Assembly (NCBI RefSeq): GCF_003574315.2
Contig: NZ_AP025739.1
Span: 4,464,001-4,528,000, forward strand
DNA length: 64,000 nt
DNA from: Capsulimonas corticalis
GTDB taxonomy: Bacteria; Armatimonadota; Armatimonadia; Armatimonadales; Capsulimonadaceae
Reading direction: 5' to 3'
The position numbers and the translations under genes are program-made. Each line of letters starts with the position of its first letter. The stretch's first letter is position 1. Positions 45,808 through 55,306 of this stretch are shown here, in pieces. The notes beneath the pieces were generated by a model. The model had not been told where the DNA came from and did not search any database. It worked only from the letters and a program-made list of their open reading frames with translations.

Positions 45808-46998
45808 CTACGCCGCCACCTTCAGCGTCTTTACCGCCTGCGCGTCGTACTTGGGTTTGTAATCCGGGCATTTGTAGCTCTTGGAGTACTCCTTCGGATT
45901 CTCCGCCTCCGCCACATAGATCTGCGCGCTGGTGACGCCGCACTTTTCGGCGGCGCGGTCGTAGTTGCCGCAGTCGTAGCAGCGGCGCAGGATGGACCAG
46001 CAGACGGAGCAGCGCTGGCTGCCGACGAGTTCGACGCGGCCGCACAGGGGGCAGTGAATATAGGTCTCCTGGAAGCCGAAATCCTTGGACTTGAGCGCGA
46101 GACGGACTTTGCGGTTGAACTCGTCCAGACCGCGCTGGAGCTCGGCGCAGGTGGCGAGCATCTGGTTCATCTGCACGGCGGAAAGGTATTCTATCACGCG
46201 CTCGTCGAGCAGGTCGTTGAGCTGTGTGCCGATCTTGTCGATCGCCTTCATATGCTGCTCGGCGGTCTGCGGCTTGTACGGCTTCGCTTTCTCGGCGCGG
46301 ACGCCCATGGTTTTGAGCAACTGATCGGTGATCTGGATCGGGACGCGCAGGAACGCCTCGCGCTTTTCGGGGTACTTGTTGATCGCGTCGATCACTTTCT
46401 CCGTATCGCCGAGGTTGAGCTTTTCGGTTTTGATCTTCTCGACAAGGCGCTTCTGAGTCGCGGGATCGTGGTTCAGGGCCGCCATTGCCCGGGCGTGGCC
46501 TTCGGAGAGGACGACCTGTCCGGGGATCGCGCGCATCGCCAGCTCGTTTTGTACGAAGAGGGGAAGCTCCAGAAGCTCCAGAGATCGGCGCAGAGTCGTC
46601 TCGGAGACGCCCAGCGTCTTGCCGCACTTTTCCCACGACATAAACGTCAGCAGGCCCTGAATGGCGCGCGCTTTTTCGATTGGGTTCAGGTCCTCGCGCT
46701 GGAAGTTCTCCAGCAGGGCGTCGGCCTGGGCGTCCTCGTCGCTCATCTCCTTGATAACGGCGGGAATGGTCGCCATTCCCGCCAGCCGCGAGGCGCGGTA
46801 GCGGCGTTCGCCCATCACGATCTGGAACTTGTCCGATCCATCCGGCCCTTTGAACGGGCGGACGACAATCGGCTCCAGCACGCCGCGCTCTTTGATGGAG
46901 GCGGCGAGCTCTTCCAGGCTCTCTTGATAAAAGGACTTCCGCGGCTGTCCCTCGTTGGTAAGGATCTGATCCAGCGGAACATTCTGAACGTTAGTCAT
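45808..46998 (-). CDS. ParB/Spo0J-family protein with cysteine-rich C-terminus
   Basis: 396 residues. ParB nuclease-like/CTPase domain (about 5-105) with ERGVLEPIVVRPF, GERRYRAS (63-70) and ENFQREDLNPIEKA; HTH ~120-145; helical linker; then a C-terminal region with Cys pairs at 316/319, 330/333 and 340/343 plus C353, an apparent zinc ribbon or double finger in place of the usual dimerisation helices. No parA is adjacent and I see no parS-like palindrome, so it may be a Noc-like or transcriptional ParB. It lies downstream of the SEDS-PBP fusion gene on the same strand. Confidence 0.85.
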   Translation of the reverse strand: MTNVQNVPLDQILTNEGQPRKSFYQESLEELAASIKERGVLEPIVVRPFKGPDGSDKFQIVMGERRYRASRLAGMATIPAVIKEMSDEDAQADALLENFQREDLNPIEKARAIQGLLTFMSWEKCGKTLGVSETTLRRSLELLELPLFVQNELAMRAIPGQVVLSEGHARAMAALNHDPATQKRLVEKIKTEKLNLGDTEKVIDAINKYPEKREAFLRVPIQITDQLLKTMGVRAEKAKPYKPQTAEQHMKAIDKIGTQLNDLLDERVIEYLSAVQMNQMLATCAELQRGLDEFNRKVRLALKSKDFGFQETYIHCPLCGRVELVGSQRCSVCWSILRRCYDCGNYDRAAEKCGVTSAQIYVAEAENPKEYSKSYKCPDYKPKYDAQAVKTLKVAA

Positions 46999-47121: not shown

Positions 47122-50100
47122 TTAATGTTTGGATGCGAACGCCTGGGCGACGATGGCGCGGCAGACAGGCCCGGCGGCGCTGCGCCCGTGGCCGCCGTTT
47201 TCGATCACGCAGGAGAATGCGAGGGATGGGCGGTCGGCCGGGGCCGAGCCGATGAACCAGGAATGCGTCTGTTTGTCGCCCTGATCGTTCTGCGCGCTGC
47301 CGGTCTTGCCGGCGACGCTCACGGGAAGGCCGTCGAACACGCCGCGCGCGGTGCCGCCGGTGACGACGCCCGCGAGCATCCCCTGAAGCTGAGCGGCCTG
47401 ATCGACCGTAACCACGGTCGTCGCGCTCTGCGAGCTTGGCGATGTGGTGTGGAAGAACGTCGCCGGGATATGAATCCCGCCGTTCGCAACGGTCTGCGCC
47501 ACTTCCGCCATCTCCGTCGGCGTCGTCCGCACCGTCCCTTGACCGTAAGAGCAGTCCGGCAGGTCTTCGCCCAGCGCCTTGAGTTTCGGGAAGTAAGCAA
47601 GGCCGAAGCCCTCGGTCGCCGTCTTCTCCAGTGCTTCCGGGCCCACGAGCAGGCCGAGGCGCGCGAAGTAGATATTGCAGGAGACGGCGAGCGCCTTCGC
47701 CATATCGGTTGAGCCGTGCGCGGAGAACTCTGCGTCGTCGGTGATACGCCGCCGCGAGTATCGCACGCCGTCATAGCGCCATTTGACGTTGTACTCCGTG
47801 TGTGGGCAGTTGACGATGGTGTTTTGCAGCCCTTGCTGGAACGCCGCCGAGGCCGTCACGACTTTGAATGTCGATCCCGGAGGGTAGAGGCCGCGCACCG
47901 AACGGTCGAGCAGCGTTGAGCGTTTGTCTTTATCCGCCAGCAGATCCGCCATGCCGTCGCCGGTGATCGTCGCGGGGTCGAACGTTGGCGAACTCACGGC
48001 GGCGAGCACCTCGCCCGTCGCGACATCTATCGCGACCGCCGCCCCCCGGTCCTTGGATTGTCCGGTGCGCCGGTCGCGTACCGAGTGGGCGCTGTCGATC
48101 AGCGCCTTGGACGCCGCCTGCTGGAGATCGAGATCGATCGAGAGGCGGATGTCTTCTCCCTTCATCTGTGACGCGCCCGGCAGATAACGCAGTCGGTAGG
48201 GCGTGAGCAGATCGGCGTAAGTCGCATAGCCGCGCAGTTCGGTATTGCGCCCGAGGGCGTTGGTCGAGCTGTGGTCGCCTTCGACGGCGTAGAGTAAGTG
48301 CGCGCAGGCGGGGCCGCCGGGGTAAAGCCGCATGCGTCCGTCGGGATTGAGCAGGCCCGTTGCCTGAGAATACTGGCCGGGCTTGGCGCTTACGGCCAGC
48401 ACGCGGCCATTGCGGTCGAAGATCGTTCCGCGCGGGATCGCGTCGGCGTAGTTTTTCAGGCGTGGGTTAATATGATCGCGCGTCACCAGATCGCGGTCCG
48501 GCGTTCGGATCGCGCGGCCAGCGATCGCCGTGTCGGCGATCCCCTGGATGTAGAACAAACGGAACACGCCGACGCCGATCAGCAGATACGCCGCCATGCC
48601 GACCGTCACCAGCCGCGCCGAGCGCACCCAGGCGCTTGAGGCGACGTCCGTAACATCCGGGGGCAGCGTCTTCGCCGAAAGATGCAGCAGCAGACCGATC
48701 GAGAAGAAGTTGACGACCAGAGAAGATGTGCCAAAGGACACAAAAGGCAGTGTGATGCCGGTGAGCGGCAGCAATCCCGTGACGCCGCCGACGATGATCA
48801 TTGTCTGGAGCGTCAAAAGCGTGGTGAGGCCCGCCGCCAAGAGCCGGTCAAAGTGCGTGACGGCGTGCATCGCGATTCGAAAGCCGCGTACGCAGATTAA
48901 TACGTAAACGATCAGGATGCAGAGCGCGCCGATCAGTCCCATCTCCTCGCCGATGGAAGCGAAGATGAGATCGGAGCCGCCGCGCGGGATCATCCCCGGA
49001 TTGCCCATCCCAAGCCCGCTGCCGAAGACGCCGCCTGTCGCCATGCCCCAGAGCCCCTGGCCCAGTTGTGCGCCCTTGGCGTCCGTATTCACCCAGGGGT
49101 TAAGCCACATCGTTACGCGCGTCGCGAAGAACCCGAGGTGGATGTGGTATCCGACGAAGCCCGCGACCAGAAGCAGAGCGCCGCCGATGAGGGGGTAGAT
49201 CTTACGCTGCGTCGCAAGGTAAACAATCGTCAGGAAGGTTCCGAAGAGCAGCACAGCCGGCCCGAGGTCCTTCATCGCGACGAACAGCAGCAGCACGCTG
49301 GCGTAGATAATCGCGAGCGGCCCGAAATCCTGTACGCGGGGCAGGGGAGCGATGGGGCTGTCCAGCGCGTCGGGCCGCTGCGTCAGGTACGACACGACAA
49401 ATAAGACCAGCAAGACCTTGATGACTTCGACCGGTTCAAATCCGAACAGCTCCAGGTGAACTCCCCCCGGTCCTGAGCCGACCAGGATTTGCAGCACCAT
49501 CAGCACGATCGCCGCCACGGCGTAGACATATTGATAGCGTCGCAGGATAATTCGGGAAAATGGCTTGAGGATCGGGACCGCCAGCGCGATCATTCCGTAA
49601 AGCGCGACGCCGCGCACTTGCCCCAGAAAAGAGAATGTATCGCGAAAGGGATCTTTCACGGTATAAACCATCATCAGACCAACGCCGCAGAGCAGTTCGA
49701 TCAAGGGCAGCAGGAACGGGTCGGCGCTGGGAGCCATTTTGCGCAAGTAGACGTGCGCCAGGAAAAAGGCAAAGAAAAAGAAAGCGATCCCGCGCCAGTA
49801 TTCGCTGGAGACATCGGACTTGCCGCGCACGACCAGCTGGTCGTCGTCGAGGACGATATTCGTCCCGCGAAACAGCTTGAGATGGCGCATCTGCGATGTC
49901 GAGCCGAAGGCGTGTCCACGCAGCTTTTGCCGGGCGTCCACGACTTGCTGCGCGATGGCCGCCGGCAGGTTCAGGGCGCGGGCAAGCTGCTGGGCCGTCG
50001 CCTGATTGACATTGACCACATTGGCGGGAACGGGCGTCGTGAGCAGCTTGCTGCTGAAGAGTAAAAGAAAGCCAAGGGCGAGCACTGCCGACATCGGCAG

Positions 50101-50145
50101 CAGGAGGGCGAGCTCCAATCCTCGGCGTGAAAATTTTTGATGCAT
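47122..50145 (-). CDS. HhH + SEDS (FtsW/RodA) glycosyltransferase + class B PBP transpeptidase fusion
   Basis: 1007 residues. TM1 (~10-31), then a ComEA-like helix-hairpin-helix segment (~43-95: VNVNQATAQQLARAL, HAFGSTSQMRHLKLF) facing outside; SEDS core ~115-495 with the FtsW/RodA block EPVEVIKVLLVLF and SDLIFASIGEE (D392 at the position of the RodA catalytic Asp); a linker TM (~510-530); PBP transpeptidase ~560-1005 with IPRGTIFDRNG, SxxK STFK (S758), SxN SCN (822-824), KTG (947-949). Both activities look intact: glycan polymerisation and crosslinking in one chain. Likely leaderless (promoter 50150-50158). Confidence 0.93.
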   Translation of the reverse strand: MHQKFSRRGLELALLLPMSAVLALGFLLLFSSKLLTTPVPANVVNVNQATAQQLARALNLPAAIAQQVVDARQKLRGHAFGSTSQMRHLKLFRGTNIVLDDDQLVVRGKSDVSSEYWRGIAFFFFAFFLAHVYLRKMAPSADPFLLPLIELLCGVGLMMVYTVKDPFRDTFSFLGQVRGVALYGMIALAVPILKPFSRIILRRYQYVYAVAAIVLMVLQILVGSGPGGVHLELFGFEPVEVIKVLLVLFVVSYLTQRPDALDSPIAPLPRVQDFGPLAIIYASVLLLFVAMKDLGPAVLLFGTFLTIVYLATQRKIYPLIGGALLLVAGFVGYHIHLGFFATRVTMWLNPWVNTDAKGAQLGQGLWGMATGGVFGSGLGMGNPGMIPRGGSDLIFASIGEEMGLIGALCILIVYVLICVRGFRIAMHAVTHFDRLLAAGLTTLLTLQTMIIVGGVTGLLPLTGITLPFVSFGTSSLVVNFFSIGLLLHLSAKTLPPDVTDVASSAWVRSARLVTVGMAAYLLIGVGVFRLFYIQGIADTAIAGRAIRTPDRDLVTRDHINPRLKNYADAIPRGTIFDRNGRVLAVSAKPGQYSQATGLLNPDGRMRLYPGGPACAHLLYAVEGDHSSTNALGRNTELRGYATYADLLTPYRLRYLPGASQMKGEDIRLSIDLDLQQAASKALIDSAHSVRDRRTGQSKDRGAAVAIDVATGEVLAAVSSPTFDPATITGDGMADLLADKDKRSTLLDRSVRGLYPPGSTFKVVTASAAFQQGLQNTIVNCPHTEYNVKWRYDGVRYSRRRITDDAEFSAHGSTDMAKALAVSCNIYFARLGLLVGPEALEKTATEGFGLAYFPKLKALGEDLPDCSYGQGTVRTTPTEMAEVAQTVANGGIHIPATFFHTTSPSSQSATTVVTVDQAAQLQGMLAGVVTGGTARGVFDGLPVSVAGKTGSAQNDQGDKQTHSWFIGSAPADRPSLAFSCVIENGGHGRSAAGPVCRAIVAQAFASKH

Positions 50146-50163
50146 GGGCAGTATAATACCCGT
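50146..50163. promoter_or_regulatory. Bidirectional core promoter between two leaderless genes
   Basis: Only 18 bp separate the two start codons. Plus strand: TATAAT (50152-50157), 6 bases, ATG of the LuxE-like gene. Minus strand: TATTAT (50158-50153), 7 bases, ATG of the SEDS-PBP gene. The two -10 boxes share the symmetric TATAATA. No ribosome site precedes either start, and -35 elements are weak on both sides. Confidence 0.7.
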
Positions 50164-51180
50164 ATGGACACCCTTGCGCGGAATATCGCCGCATTCATCG
50201 CCGAGGATCCTTCAGGGAGCACTGAGGATCCATTCAATACGCTGGCGCTGGAGCTGTTTGCCCGTCAGTATGAACGAAACGAAGTGTATCGCCGCCTGTG
50301 CGAGAGTTTAGACGTGACGCCGGGATCGATCGATCACTGGCGCATGATCCCGGCGACGCCGTCGCAGGCGTTCAAGCTCTTTACGCTGAGCTGCGCGCCG
50401 CCCGAGGAGGTCGTCTCGGTCTTTCACTCGTCGGGAACGACGCTGCGCGAGGCGGGAAAGCACTCCATGGATGCGGACGCGCTCGCGCTGTATGAAGCAA
50501 GCTTGGCGCATGGTTTTGCGCGGGGAATTCCGTCCGCGAACGGACTGCCGATCTGGGCGATGATGCCTGCGCCGGACGCCGCGCCGCATTCCTCGCTGTC
50601 CCATATGCTTGGCGCGCTGCGGGCGGAGCGGTTTTACTGGGATCGGGATTCCGAGCTGTCCTCGGACCTTGCGCGTGTCGAAAGGCCGATCGTACTCTTC
50701 GGCACGGCGTTCGCCTTTGTCGGCCTGTTCGATGCGTCCACGGACGCCTGGAGCCTGCCTCCGGGAAGCGTCGTCATAGAAACCGGCGGTTTCAAAGGGC
50801 GCACCCGCGAGGTGGCGCGCGAAGAGCTGTACGGTATGTTTCGGGATCGATTGGGCGTTCCAATCGAATCGTGTTACAGCGAATACGGCATGTCCGAGAT
50901 GGCGTCGCAGTTTTACAGCCGGGGACTGGATCCGGTCAAGCGCGGCCCCCACTGGGTGCGTACGGCGGCCATCGATCCGGTGACGGGCGCGGAGGCCCAA
51001 GCCGGGCAGCCTGGGCTTCTCACGCACTTCGATCTGGCGAATTTTAACTCGGTGATGGCGGTCCAGACGGAAGATATGGGGATTTTGGGAGCCGATGGGT
51101 TTACGCTGCGCGGCCGCGCGAGCGACACCGAGCTGCGCGGATGCTCGCTGACCGTGGAAGAATTATGGGCGCGACAGTAA
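50164..51180 (+). CDS. LuxE-like acyl-protein synthetase (AMP-forming)
   Basis: 338 residues. Adenylate-forming ligase related to LuxE, which loads fatty acids onto LuxC: VSVFHSSGTTLREAGKHSMD is the ATP loop, ESCYSEYGMSEMASQFY the adenylate motif, and TEDMGILGADGFTLRGRASD the C-terminal hinge motif. Start ATG 50164 is right behind the -10 box, so the mRNA should be leaderless. The LuxC-like gene begins inside its 3' end (16-base overlap). No luxD, luxAB or luciferase genes are visible. Confidence 0.88.
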   Translation: MDTLARNIAAFIAEDPSGSTEDPFNTLALELFARQYERNEVYRRLCESLDVTPGSIDHWRMIPATPSQAFKLFTLSCAPPEEVVSVFHSSGTTLREAGKHSMDADALALYEASLAHGFARGIPSANGLPIWAMMPAPDAAPHSSLSHMLGALRAERFYWDRDSELSSDLARVERPIVLFGTAFAFVGLFDASTDAWSLPPGSVVIETGGFKGRTREVAREELYGMFRDRLGVPIESCYSEYGMSEMASQFYSRGLDPVKRGPHWVRTAAIDPVTGAEAQAGQPGLLTHFDLANFNSVMAVQTEDMGILGADGFTLRGRASDTELRGCSLTVEELWARQ

Positions 51181-52367
51181 CTGATATCCGTGACGCCGCC
51201 GCCCGCTTGAGGACCGAGCGTGACGCCGTGCTGACCGGCATGACGTCGCTGGAGGTCGCGGAAGCGCTGAGCTTCGTCGCCGCGCGCTATCTGCGCGGCG
51301 AGAGCGACATCGCCCGGCGTCTGCAAAGTTTGAGCGAACCCTTTCCGTTCGCCATGGTTCGGCCCAGTCTGGACGCCCTCTTTGCATCCATGTCTTTAAC
51401 GTCATTGCGCGATCTGCAAAAAAATGAAGGCGTCATCGACACTCTTGGGTATGATCTGATAGGTCATGTCATTGCGGGGAATACGCCTTTGCTGGCGTGG
51501 ACCAGCGTGGCGCGCGCGCTGCTGGTCCGCAGCGCCTCTCTGGTGAAACTCCCCACGGGGCCGGCGGCGCGGTGGGGCGGCGCGTTTCCTCTGCTGCTTG
51601 CCGAAACGCATCCGGATCTCGCGCGCTGTGTCGAGATGCTGGAATGGGCTGGGGGAACGCGCGAGCTGGACGAAGCGCTTGCCCTGGAGACCGATTTCCT
51701 GGTGGCGTATGGCGATGACACCACCATTGAGCAGCTTCGGCGTTATCGTCCCGGAGCGCAGTTTTTGGGATACGGGCATCGTTTGTCGATGGCGATTGCG
51801 CTGTCGCTGCCGGATGCAATGTCGGCGGCGATGGACCTGGCGCGAGATGTGCTGACGTACGATCAGAGCGGGTGTCTGTCGCCGCATTCAATTTACGTCA
51901 TCGGCGATGTTTATGACGCCGACGACTTTGCCGGGCGGCTTTCCGACGCGCTGAAACGCACGTCGCTGGAGATGAACCTGGCGCCTGTGAACGTGGAGGC
52001 GGCCGCCCAGGTGAGGCGTCACCGGACACTGGCGCGTATGATGGGCGATCGCTTGTGGGAAGATCCACAGCTGCGATATACCGTGGTCCGGCCGCGCCGG
52101 CGGCAGTTCGCCGCATCGCCGACACACGGCGTGATCAACGTCCAATCGCTGTCGTCGATCGACATTTTGCCGGAGGCTCTCGCGGAAGTCGCGGGGGCGC
52201 TGCAAGGCTGTGCGATTGCGGCGCGCGGGGATATTCCGGCCGCGCTCCGGGAGATGCTGGCGAAGATGGGAATTTCTTATCTCTGCCGTCCCGGTCAGAT
52301 GCAGACGCCGCCGATTACCTGGCGGCAGAATGAAATCGACGTTTTGAAGTGTTTCACGGCGGCGTGA
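51165..52367 (+). CDS. LuxC-like acyl-CoA/acyl-protein reductase
   Basis: 400 residues. Aldehyde-dehydrogenase-like reductase with the LuxC active-site motif YDQSGCLSPHS (Cys237), an NADPH-binding central part (GHVIAGNTPLLAWTSVARAL), and LEMNLAPVNVEAAAQVRR. Reduces activated fatty acid to aldehyde. Start ATG 51165 with GTGGAAG ahead overlaps the LuxE-like gene, so the two are translationally coupled: a two-part fatty acid reductase. Confidence 0.88.
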   Translation: MGATVTDIRDAAARLRTERDAVLTGMTSLEVAEALSFVAARYLRGESDIARRLQSLSEPFPFAMVRPSLDALFASMSLTSLRDLQKNEGVIDTLGYDLIGHVIAGNTPLLAWTSVARALLVRSASLVKLPTGPAARWGGAFPLLLAETHPDLARCVEMLEWAGGTRELDEALALETDFLVAYGDDTTIEQLRRYRPGAQFLGYGHRLSMAIALSLPDAMSAAMDLARDVLTYDQSGCLSPHSIYVIGDVYDADDFAGRLSDALKRTSLEMNLAPVNVEAAAQVRRHRTLARMMGDRLWEDPQLRYTVVRPRRRQFAASPTHGVINVQSLSSIDILPEALAEVAGALQGCAIAARGDIPAALREMLAKMGISYLCRPGQMQTPPITWRQNEIDVLKCFTAA

Positions 52368-53734: not shown

Positions 53735-55306
53735 TTAATGCTTCAAGATACGCGATTTTAGGAAGCCCAGCGCGCTTTGCTGGTTGACGACGATCGGGAT
53801 GCTCAGGGTTTGTCCGTTGGAGCCGCTGGCGTTGACTTGCAGCGTGTGCGCTCCGGAGGACAGGCTGGACGGCTGTGTTTTTACCTGAATGCTGATGGCG
53901 GCGTCGGGCTCCAGGGAACCGGTCTCTGGCGCGATCGACAGCTCTATCGGCTGGCCCGCCGGGATGCTGAACTGGAAGTCGACTGCTCGTTCGCCGATAT
54001 TCTTCAGTTCGAACACGCCCGCGCCCGGCTGTCCGGAACGCGTGGCGATGGCGATGGGCGCGGCTTCGTTGGTCGGACGCTCCGTCACTTGCAGCAGGCC
54101 GGGCTTCAGGATGACGCTGGCGCTGCATTCGAGGAACCAGCGGTCGCCGGAGCTGATCTGCTTGCCGTCCTGATCGTAATACTGCGGGCTGTTGAACTCC
54201 AGCTTGCCGACATTGATTCCGTTCTTATTGGGCATTCGGGAGGGAACGACAATCACGTTGACGTCGCGCTTGTTGCCCTTGAATGTGGTGAACGGGACCT
54301 GGATCCAGTTATCACGCGGCTTGATCTCGCCGCGCAGCTCGCCGCCGCCGGCGTTATAGATCGTGATCTGGAGCGGCGGGACATGCGCCCCGGATGGGAT
54401 CGCTCCGAAACGCAGGTGCTTTTTGTTGATGAGCAGAACCGGAGGCGCCGTTTTGCGCATTTCCAGCAGAAAGTCGTTGGCGCTGGCGAAGCGGTACTCG
54501 GTGTTGTAGGAAAGCGATCGGTTGATCAGCGCGACCAGATTGAGATCGGCGTTGGGCTTCTCCATCAGCTCGTTGGTGATCGTCATCGAGCGCGCGTTGA
54601 TCTTCTCCTGATCGGGCGGCTCTCCCGCGATCATCTCATAGAGAATGCAGCCCAGGGCGAAGATATCCGTGCGGACGTCGGCGACCCACTTGCCATCGCC
54701 GTCGAGCTCCGGCGGTAGGTATCCCTCCGTGCCGTAAATCTCGGTTTGCTTTCGACCCTCGTTCGCCTTCCCGAAGTACTGGGCGGCGCCGAAGTCCAGC
54801 AGAAAGAGATGGCCCTGCGGGGTAATGCGGATATTCGCCGGCTTCAAGTCGTGATGGATGATGCCGCGCGAGTGAAGGAAGGCGAGCGCGTCGCACAAAC
54901 ATACGGACCAGCGAAGGGTCCATTCGCGGGGCAGGGGACTGCGCTTGCGAATGATGTCGTCCAGAGTCGTTCCTTCGATGAACTCCTGGGCGATGTAGAA
55001 ATAGCCGTCAAATTGGAAGGATTCGTAGGATGTCGGCATCAGAGGGTGGGCGCTGGCGTGCATGCCGACCACGCGCTCCCGATCGAAGAGATCCTTGAGC
55101 ATCCGCTGCTCGCGCGGGTTGCGCGCGCCGAAGAACTCCTTGAGGGCGACCTTGCGGCCAGGCATGTCCGGGTCTTCGGCGTAGTAGACCGCGCCGAACG
55201 CTCCGGTTCCGACAACCTTTCCCACCACATAGGTTCCCGAATTGCCGCGGACCGTCTCGCCGGGGGCGAGCAGCATTAAATCGTCGTGCCTTTTGCGTTT
55301 CGCCAA
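53735..55306 (-). CDS. Ser/Thr protein kinase with C-terminal Ig-like domains (TTG start)
   Basis: 523 residues. Hanks-type kinase (about 25-290): Gly loop GTGAFGAVYYAE, VAIK-Lys in KVALKEFFG, catalytic loop IIHHDLKPANI (HHD instead of HRD), LLDFGAAQYFG (DFG) and GTEGYLPPEL (APE region). The remaining ~230 residues are beta-rich, with two Ig/BACON-like domains (YNAGGGELRGEIKPRDNWI, ELKNIGERAVDFQFSIP). No membrane helix, unlike PknB. TTG 55306 has GAGG at 10 bases; an ATG lies 30 bases further in. Substrates unknown. Confidence 0.9.
   Translation of the reverse strand: MAKRKRHDDLMLLAPGETVRGNSGTYVVGKVVGTGAFGAVYYAEDPDMPGRKVALKEFFGARNPREQRMLKDLFDRERVVGMHASAHPLMPTSYESFQFDGYFYIAQEFIEGTTLDDIIRKRSPLPREWTLRWSVCLCDALAFLHSRGIIHHDLKPANIRITPQGHLFLLDFGAAQYFGKANEGRKQTEIYGTEGYLPPELDGDGKWVADVRTDIFALGCILYEMIAGEPPDQEKINARSMTITNELMEKPNADLNLVALINRSLSYNTEYRFASANDFLLEMRKTAPPVLLINKKHLRFGAIPSGAHVPPLQITIYNAGGGELRGEIKPRDNWIQVPFTTFKGNKRDVNVIVVPSRMPNKNGINVGKLEFNSPQYYDQDGKQISSGDRWFLECSASVILKPGLLQVTERPTNEAAPIAIATRSGQPGAGVFELKNIGERAVDFQFSIPAGQPIELSIAPETGSLEPDAAISIQVKTQPSSLSSGAHTLQVNASGSNGQTLSIPIVVNQQSALGFLKSRILKH

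Follow-up and report, generated by a model that had tools for sequence, protein, structure and literature searches.

The window, a 64,000-nt stretch of the single-contig, 7.65-Mb genome of Capsulimonas corticalis (Armatimonadota), contains on its reverse strand a gene of 1,007 codons that begins with ATG, has no internal stop, and encodes a SEDS glycosyltransferase and a class B penicillin-binding protein (PBP) in one chain. Ahead of the SEDS core lie two extra transmembrane (TM) helices, TMa and TMb, and the loop between them holds a helix-hairpin-helix (HhH) module. The features of this gene, and of one further gene in the window, are as follows:

47122..50145, reverse strand: whole gene; N-terminal helix, HhH, helix, SEDS glycosyltransferase, and class B PBP transpeptidase (ORF call, Pfam, copy in the Capsulimonas MAG L004, dN/dS)
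50038..50127, reverse strand: extra TM helix TMa, residues 7–36, N-terminus in (AlphaFold, hydropathy, and charge; also present in split orthologs)
49882..50025, reverse strand: HhH module, residues 41–88, in the outward loop between TMa and TMb, without hairpin Gly-x-Gly (Pfam HHH_3, AlphaFold helices, family alignment)
49735..49821, reverse strand: extra TM helix TMb, residues 109–137, returning the chain to the cytoplasm ahead of the SEDS core (AlphaFold, hydropathy)
48670..49707, reverse strand: SEDS glycosyltransferase core, residues 147–492, ten TM helices (Pfam FTSW_RODA_SPOVE, PF01098, E value 5.1e-59; PDB relatives)
48970..48972, reverse strand: SEDS catalytic aspartate Asp392, in SDLIFA (aligns with the conserved FtsW/RodA Asp)
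48538..48636, reverse strand: PBP membrane anchor helix, residues 504–536, directly after SEDS TM10 with an in-frame junction (AlphaFold, hydropathy)
47149..48045, reverse strand: class B PBP transpeptidase domain, residues 701–999 (Pfam Transpeptidase, PF00905, E value 4.1e-44; fold)
47863..47874, reverse strand: PBP motif SxxK, Ser758–Lys761 (motif alignment)
47674..47682, reverse strand: PBP motif SxN, Ser822–Asn824 (motif alignment)
47299..47307, reverse strand: PBP motif KTG, Lys947–Gly949 (motif alignment)
53735..55306, reverse strand: Ser/Thr protein kinase with a C-terminal Ig-like (HYDIN/Cep192-type) region (Pfam Pkinase, E value 9.3e-37; BLAST cluster)

The original prediction described this gene as a single-gene SEDS-PBP fusion and named a frameshift or stop between the domains as one finding that would speak against it. 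The description held: the frame is intact over 1,007 aa with no break apparent between the domains, and GC content by codon position is of the coding type in 10 of 10 segments of 100 codons. L004 encodes a full-length copy in the same frame with 87% identity overall, 94% in the SEDS part, and 62% in the HhH part. All domains have dN/dS ratios well below 1 (approximately 0.25 for the HhH, 0.065 for the SEDS domain, and 0.11 for the PBP domain), revealing that the HhH is the fastest-evolving part of the protein and is under purifying selection that is looser than for the enzyme parts. The fusion is no sequencing artifact, given that L004 shares the intact frame and that such a protein is found in approximately 50 of 291 Armatimonadota genomes; together with the codon-position GC content and the dN/dS ratios, these relatives rule out a frameshift or assembly artifact.

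The SEDS half matches its Pfam model over profile positions 5–353 of 356, and this whole-domain match, the ten TM helices, and a catalytic Asp392 located in the large extracytoplasmic loop identify it as a SEDS family member; its relatives in the PDB are MrdB/RodA (8tj3), FtsW (8bh1), and RodA (6bar and 6pl5). The PBP half has the SxxK, SxN, and KTG motifs and a single TM anchor and lacks a GT51 domain, which is the composition of a class B PBP. It has no Pfam match to the PBP_dimer pedestal (PF03717), the place of which is occupied by residues 531–700, and its nearest solved relatives are of the PbpA type, with the fold being closest to PbpA of M. tuberculosis and to Atopobium and Eggerthella homologs. 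All three PBP motifs and the SEDS catalytic site named in the original prediction are present (Asp392, Ser758/Lys761, Ser822-x-Asn824, and Lys947-Thr-Gly). Hydropathy and the positive-inside rule give a topology of 13 TM helices with the N-terminus in, which predicts an outside location for the PBP domain and for the two loops that hold the HhH and the SEDS catalytic site. The AlphaFold2 model of the full protein, built from a 42-sequence alignment, has a pLDDT of 88.9 and a pTM of 0.81. Judged by the sequence, lipid II should be polymerized by the SEDS half and the resulting polymer crosslinked by the PBP half tethered to it, and because both halves reside in a single polypeptide we infer that the ratio of polymerase to crosslinker is fixed at 1:1.

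A search of the host genome for other ftsW, rodA, and pbp genes, which had been suggested as a check, identified a separate FtsW and a separate RodA as well as three other transpeptidase-domain proteins, that is, an FtsI-like protein encoded near FtsW, a second protein of the size of a class B PBP (bPBP), and a probable class A PBP. Given these two further SEDS and three further transpeptidase-domain genes, the fusion constitutes a third SEDS-bPBP synthase. SEDS trees place it in a third clade that is separated from Armatimonadota FtsW and RodA with a support of 100/100. This clade includes RodA proteins of FHA/PP2C/kinase loci from Actinomyces, Tsukamurella, and Nonomuraea, a Monoglobus protein encoded beside an FHA gene, Eremiobacterota proteins, and plasmid-encoded fusions from Spirosoma and Rhodococcus, with the long-branched Rhodococcus, Spirosoma, and L116 sequences being less certainly placed. 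The fusion also misses the NCBIfam equivalog cut-offs for ftsW (204 bits vs. 337.5) and rodA_shape (154 bits vs. 336.7). We therefore rejected an identity as FtsW or as canonical RodA, and the SEDS half, which had been taken to be FtsW-like, instead groups with the RodA-PbpA proteins of FHA/kinase loci. The fusion probably works like, and descends from, a protein pair of this RodA-PbpA type.

The gene order FHA-PP2C-SEDS-PBP-kinase is found in split loci of Armatimonadota and in Actinobacteria. Fused genes are followed by FHA, PP2C, and kinase genes in L077 and L079, and FHA and PP2C genes lie beside the fusion in L131. In the window, only a kinase gene (53735..55306) is found near the fusion, 3.6 kb upstream, and FHA genes are located elsewhere in the genome. 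This kinase belongs to the same BLAST cluster as kinases encoded near SEDS-PBP genes in 18 other loci and is possibly a remnant of an ancestral FHA-PP2C-SEDS-PBP-kinase cluster; because divergent genes fill the 3.6 kb, the arrangement is only suggestive of regulation of the fusion by the kinase. The forward-strand genes at 50137–52367, which are LuxE-like and LuxC-like and divergent from the fusion, are kept in the family relatives L075 and L078. On the other side, a reverse-strand gene at 45808–46998 encodes a ParB-like protein that combines ParB_N and HTH domains with a zinc-ribbon-like C-terminus, and it also lies beside the fusion in L004.

We also considered the HhH as a substitute for a lost PASTA-kinase sensor. 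All 14 split-locus genomes have at least three PASTA hits and 26 of 30 genomes with an HhH-containing fusion have at most two, a difference assessed with a Fisher test that ignores kinship. We do not rely on this idea, as the pattern follows phylogeny and the host genome itself encodes a PASTA protein. The latter (G000:C1:3936833-3937225; L154:232-2310) is unlinked to the fusion and has a degenerate kinase domain that reads HGHLTPDN where HRDLKPEN is usual.

In Armatimonadota genomes without the single frame, SEDS and PBP are in some cases encoded by adjacent separate genes. In L117, L118, L119, L121, and L124, both genes are read in the same register with a single stop codon (TGA or TAA) between them, and in most of these junctions a start codon follows shortly after the stop; loss of the stop codon would thus join SEDS and PBP. 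The main fused clade has 97–98% support. L110 and L111 are placed outside this clade, with a borderline AU test (p = 0.045), and they look like a separate fusion event, which makes a single fusion within Armatimonadota uncertain. Two members of family f7 (L108:6427-9729 and L109:5912-9214) have lost all three transpeptidase motifs, the corresponding sequences being EPGNAFE/EPGNAIE, SCK/SCR, and KIA. They keep the SEDS Asp, the frame, and the HhH and have a dN/dS of approximately 0.23 in the PBP part. In two further fused relatives (L112:6011-9391 and L113:5973-9305), the catalytic Asp of the SEDS domain appears to be missing along with the PBP motifs, with the HhH region kept, and these proteins are possibly complete pseudoenzymes. 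These relatives suggest that the PBP half can be retained for a noncatalytic role, which agrees with the published finding that the transmembrane helix of PBP2 stimulates RodA (PMC10449877).

The HhH module is more divergent than the enzyme domains, and its match to HHH_3 is weak when the window protein is taken whole. In a scan of the whole protein, residues 41–85 matched this model with an E value of 8.8e-5 and scored 23 bits, below the curated cut-off of 27; the score was 26.1 bits with the N-terminus alone and 27.8 bits, above the cut-off, in the genome search. The relatives match far better, as HHH_3 matches 32 of the 48 N-termini taken from fused relatives, with a best E value of 1.8e-19, and several have two HhH units, which places the HhH of the window protein beyond chance. 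In the full-length AlphaFold2 model, the module consists of helices at residues 51–58, 62–74, and 83–87 with pLDDT values of about 86–94, and modeled on its own it has a pLDDT of 82.7. Its nearest solved fold in Foldseek is the GspK-type pseudopilin XcpX (probability 0.87, TM score 0.62), and among solved structures the module alone had no significant Foldseek match, the best E value being approximately 1. The Pfam matches of the family, the topology, and the AlphaFold helices thus agree with the proposal that residues 40–100 form an HhH on the outer face, between the first TM helix and the SEDS core.

We surveyed the distribution of HhH-containing SEDS proteins in the 291 Armatimonadota genomes and, outside this phylum, in plasmid records. 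The two extra N-terminal helices are already present in the split relatives, in which they are joined by a short loop. An HhH is found in the TMa-TMb loop in families f1, f2, f7, f8, and f32, is missing from f19 and L090, and is degraded in L097 and L098, where it has probably been lost; because several fused lineages lack it, the HhH is not essential to the fusion. Mapped on the tree, this distribution is most simply read as one gain and several losses, with the root of the trait not proven. The same loop has other contents elsewhere. One Armatimonadota fusion (L125:5020-8322, genome G001) has a TonB_C domain (E value 3.8e-10) at the place of the HhH, and G227 has an HhH plus further sequence. 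On a plasmid of Spirosoma oryzicola, a 1,323-aa SEDS-PBP fusion (L138:1273-5244), flanked by genes for a Ser/Thr kinase and an FHA protein, has a carboxypeptidase-regulatory-like domain between the first two helices.

Taken together, we consider it likely that the window protein is a third SEDS-bPBP synthase, a fused Armatimonadota version of the RodA-PbpA type, in which the HhH serves as a protein-docking or regulatory module. On this reading, adjacent SEDS and PBP genes of a RodA-PbpA pair would have been joined in frame, and an HhH of the ComEA/GspK type would have entered the outward loop between the two extra helices. The module would sit close to both active sites on the outer side of the membrane, and because of this position and the lack of DNA-contacting hairpin glycines it would most likely dock proteins or regulate, thereby placing or activating the synthase. 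The original prediction stressed that the HhH of ComEA binds DNA and offered glycan or protein as other ligands; of these, contact with a protein is now better supported than glycan binding. Binding of surface DNA by the HhH, which would connect wall synthesis with DNA uptake or with the extracellular DNA of a capsule or biofilm, would fit its clear HHH_3 kinship with the ComEA type, its extracytoplasmic position, and a net charge of +4 in the core of the HhH of the window protein, given which the module may make weak contact with nucleic acid. HhH folds use the hairpin Gly-x-Gly on DNA, and this pattern is absent from the window protein and present in 1 of 30 relatives, whereas the hairpins of the host's own ComEA read GVG and GIG. 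Because the glycines are missing in virtually all members yet kept in the genome's own ComEA, DNA binding is unlikely; moreover, the mean net charge of the core is about +0.4 across the family, with many members being acidic, and the second HhH of the profile is matched only in part in the window protein (3–46 of 65). We therefore disfavor a ComEA-like DNA binder and regard the surface-DNA link as improbable. A role in docking or regulation, which we prefer over DNA binding, is what we infer for the HhH.

An HhH without a specific partner, acting as a spacer or cap that steadies the extra TM hairpin or packs in cis on the SEDS loops or the PBP pedestal, would account for its fast evolution and repeated loss and for its absence from the split orthologs, and the confident overall model permits a fixed position for it. 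Retention in at least five families under purifying selection and the frequent doubling to two units speak against such a passive part, which makes it unlikely, if less so than DNA binding. That the fusion is a scaffold or regulator, with FtsW-FtsI and RodA-PBP2 doing the enzymatic work, is suggested by the loss of all three transpeptidase motifs with the frame kept in L108 and L109 and by L112 and L113, which apparently lack the SEDS Asp as well; since every catalytic residue is retained in the window protein, as in almost all of the other members, we consider this highly improbable. Returning to the docking or regulatory reading, a more specific and tentative version is that the HhH, as a module that does not bind DNA, is an in-cis extracytoplasmic regulator that binds a partner in the envelope or detects newly made wall and so gates polymerization and crosslinking. 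If so, the TMa-TMb loop would be a general slot for lineage-specific outside domains, filled by an HhH in most Armatimonadota fusions, by TonB_C in one, and by a carboxypeptidase-regulatory-like domain in Spirosoma.

How SEDS polymerases are coupled to their PBP partners and switched on is an open question, and with fused and split proteins, forms with and without an HhH, and transpeptidase-dead relatives, a single phylum offers a natural experiment on this coupling. The fusion proteins also provide ready-made single chains for structural and enzymatic work together with a candidate built-in regulator. The nearest known system is RodA-PbpA of the actinobacterial fha-pstP-rodA-pbpA-pkn locus (M. 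tuberculosis PbpA, PDB 3un7), which shares with the Armatimonadota proteins the SEDS clade, the order of SEDS and then PBP, the nearest PBP fold, and, in several cases, the FHA/PP2C/kinase neighbors. It consists of two polypeptides without an HhH, whereas the window protein is one chain with an HhH in its N-terminal loop and has no adjacent FHA and PP2C genes. Fusion by itself, which the original prediction regarded as unusual, has precedents: natural single-ORF SEDS-PBP fusions are mentioned in one line of PMC10449877, with reference to the Rhodococcus RHA1 genome, and we found such proteins in Bacteroidota (Spirosoma oryzicola) and on the Rhodococcus conjugative plasmid pLW2, where an 883-aa fusion (L139:2098-4749) lies beside FHA and PP2C genes. 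As in the window, SEDS precedes the transpeptidase in one frame in both; unlike the window protein they lack an HhH, and no extra domain was detected in the pLW2 protein. An engineered Escherichia coli RodA-PBP2 fusion, which is enzymatically active (PMC10449877), has the same order but joins canonical RodA and PBP2 by an artificial linker and has no HhH. The HhH modules of ComEA and of GspK/XcpX-type proteins are, like that of the window protein, membrane-anchored extracytoplasmic domains of the HHH_3/T2SSK kind, but they are not joined to a wall synthase, and ComEA has the Gly-x-Gly hairpins that the window HhH lacks. A literature search for SEDS proteins with an HhH or for Armatimonadota fusions, with subscription journals mostly outside its coverage, found none. 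Thus, the fusion itself is known and its HhH domain, conserved across much of Armatimonadota, appears to be undescribed; what is new relative to these systems is conservation on a phylum-wide scale, the transition from neighboring genes to a single fused one, and an HhH set between two extra N-terminal helices.
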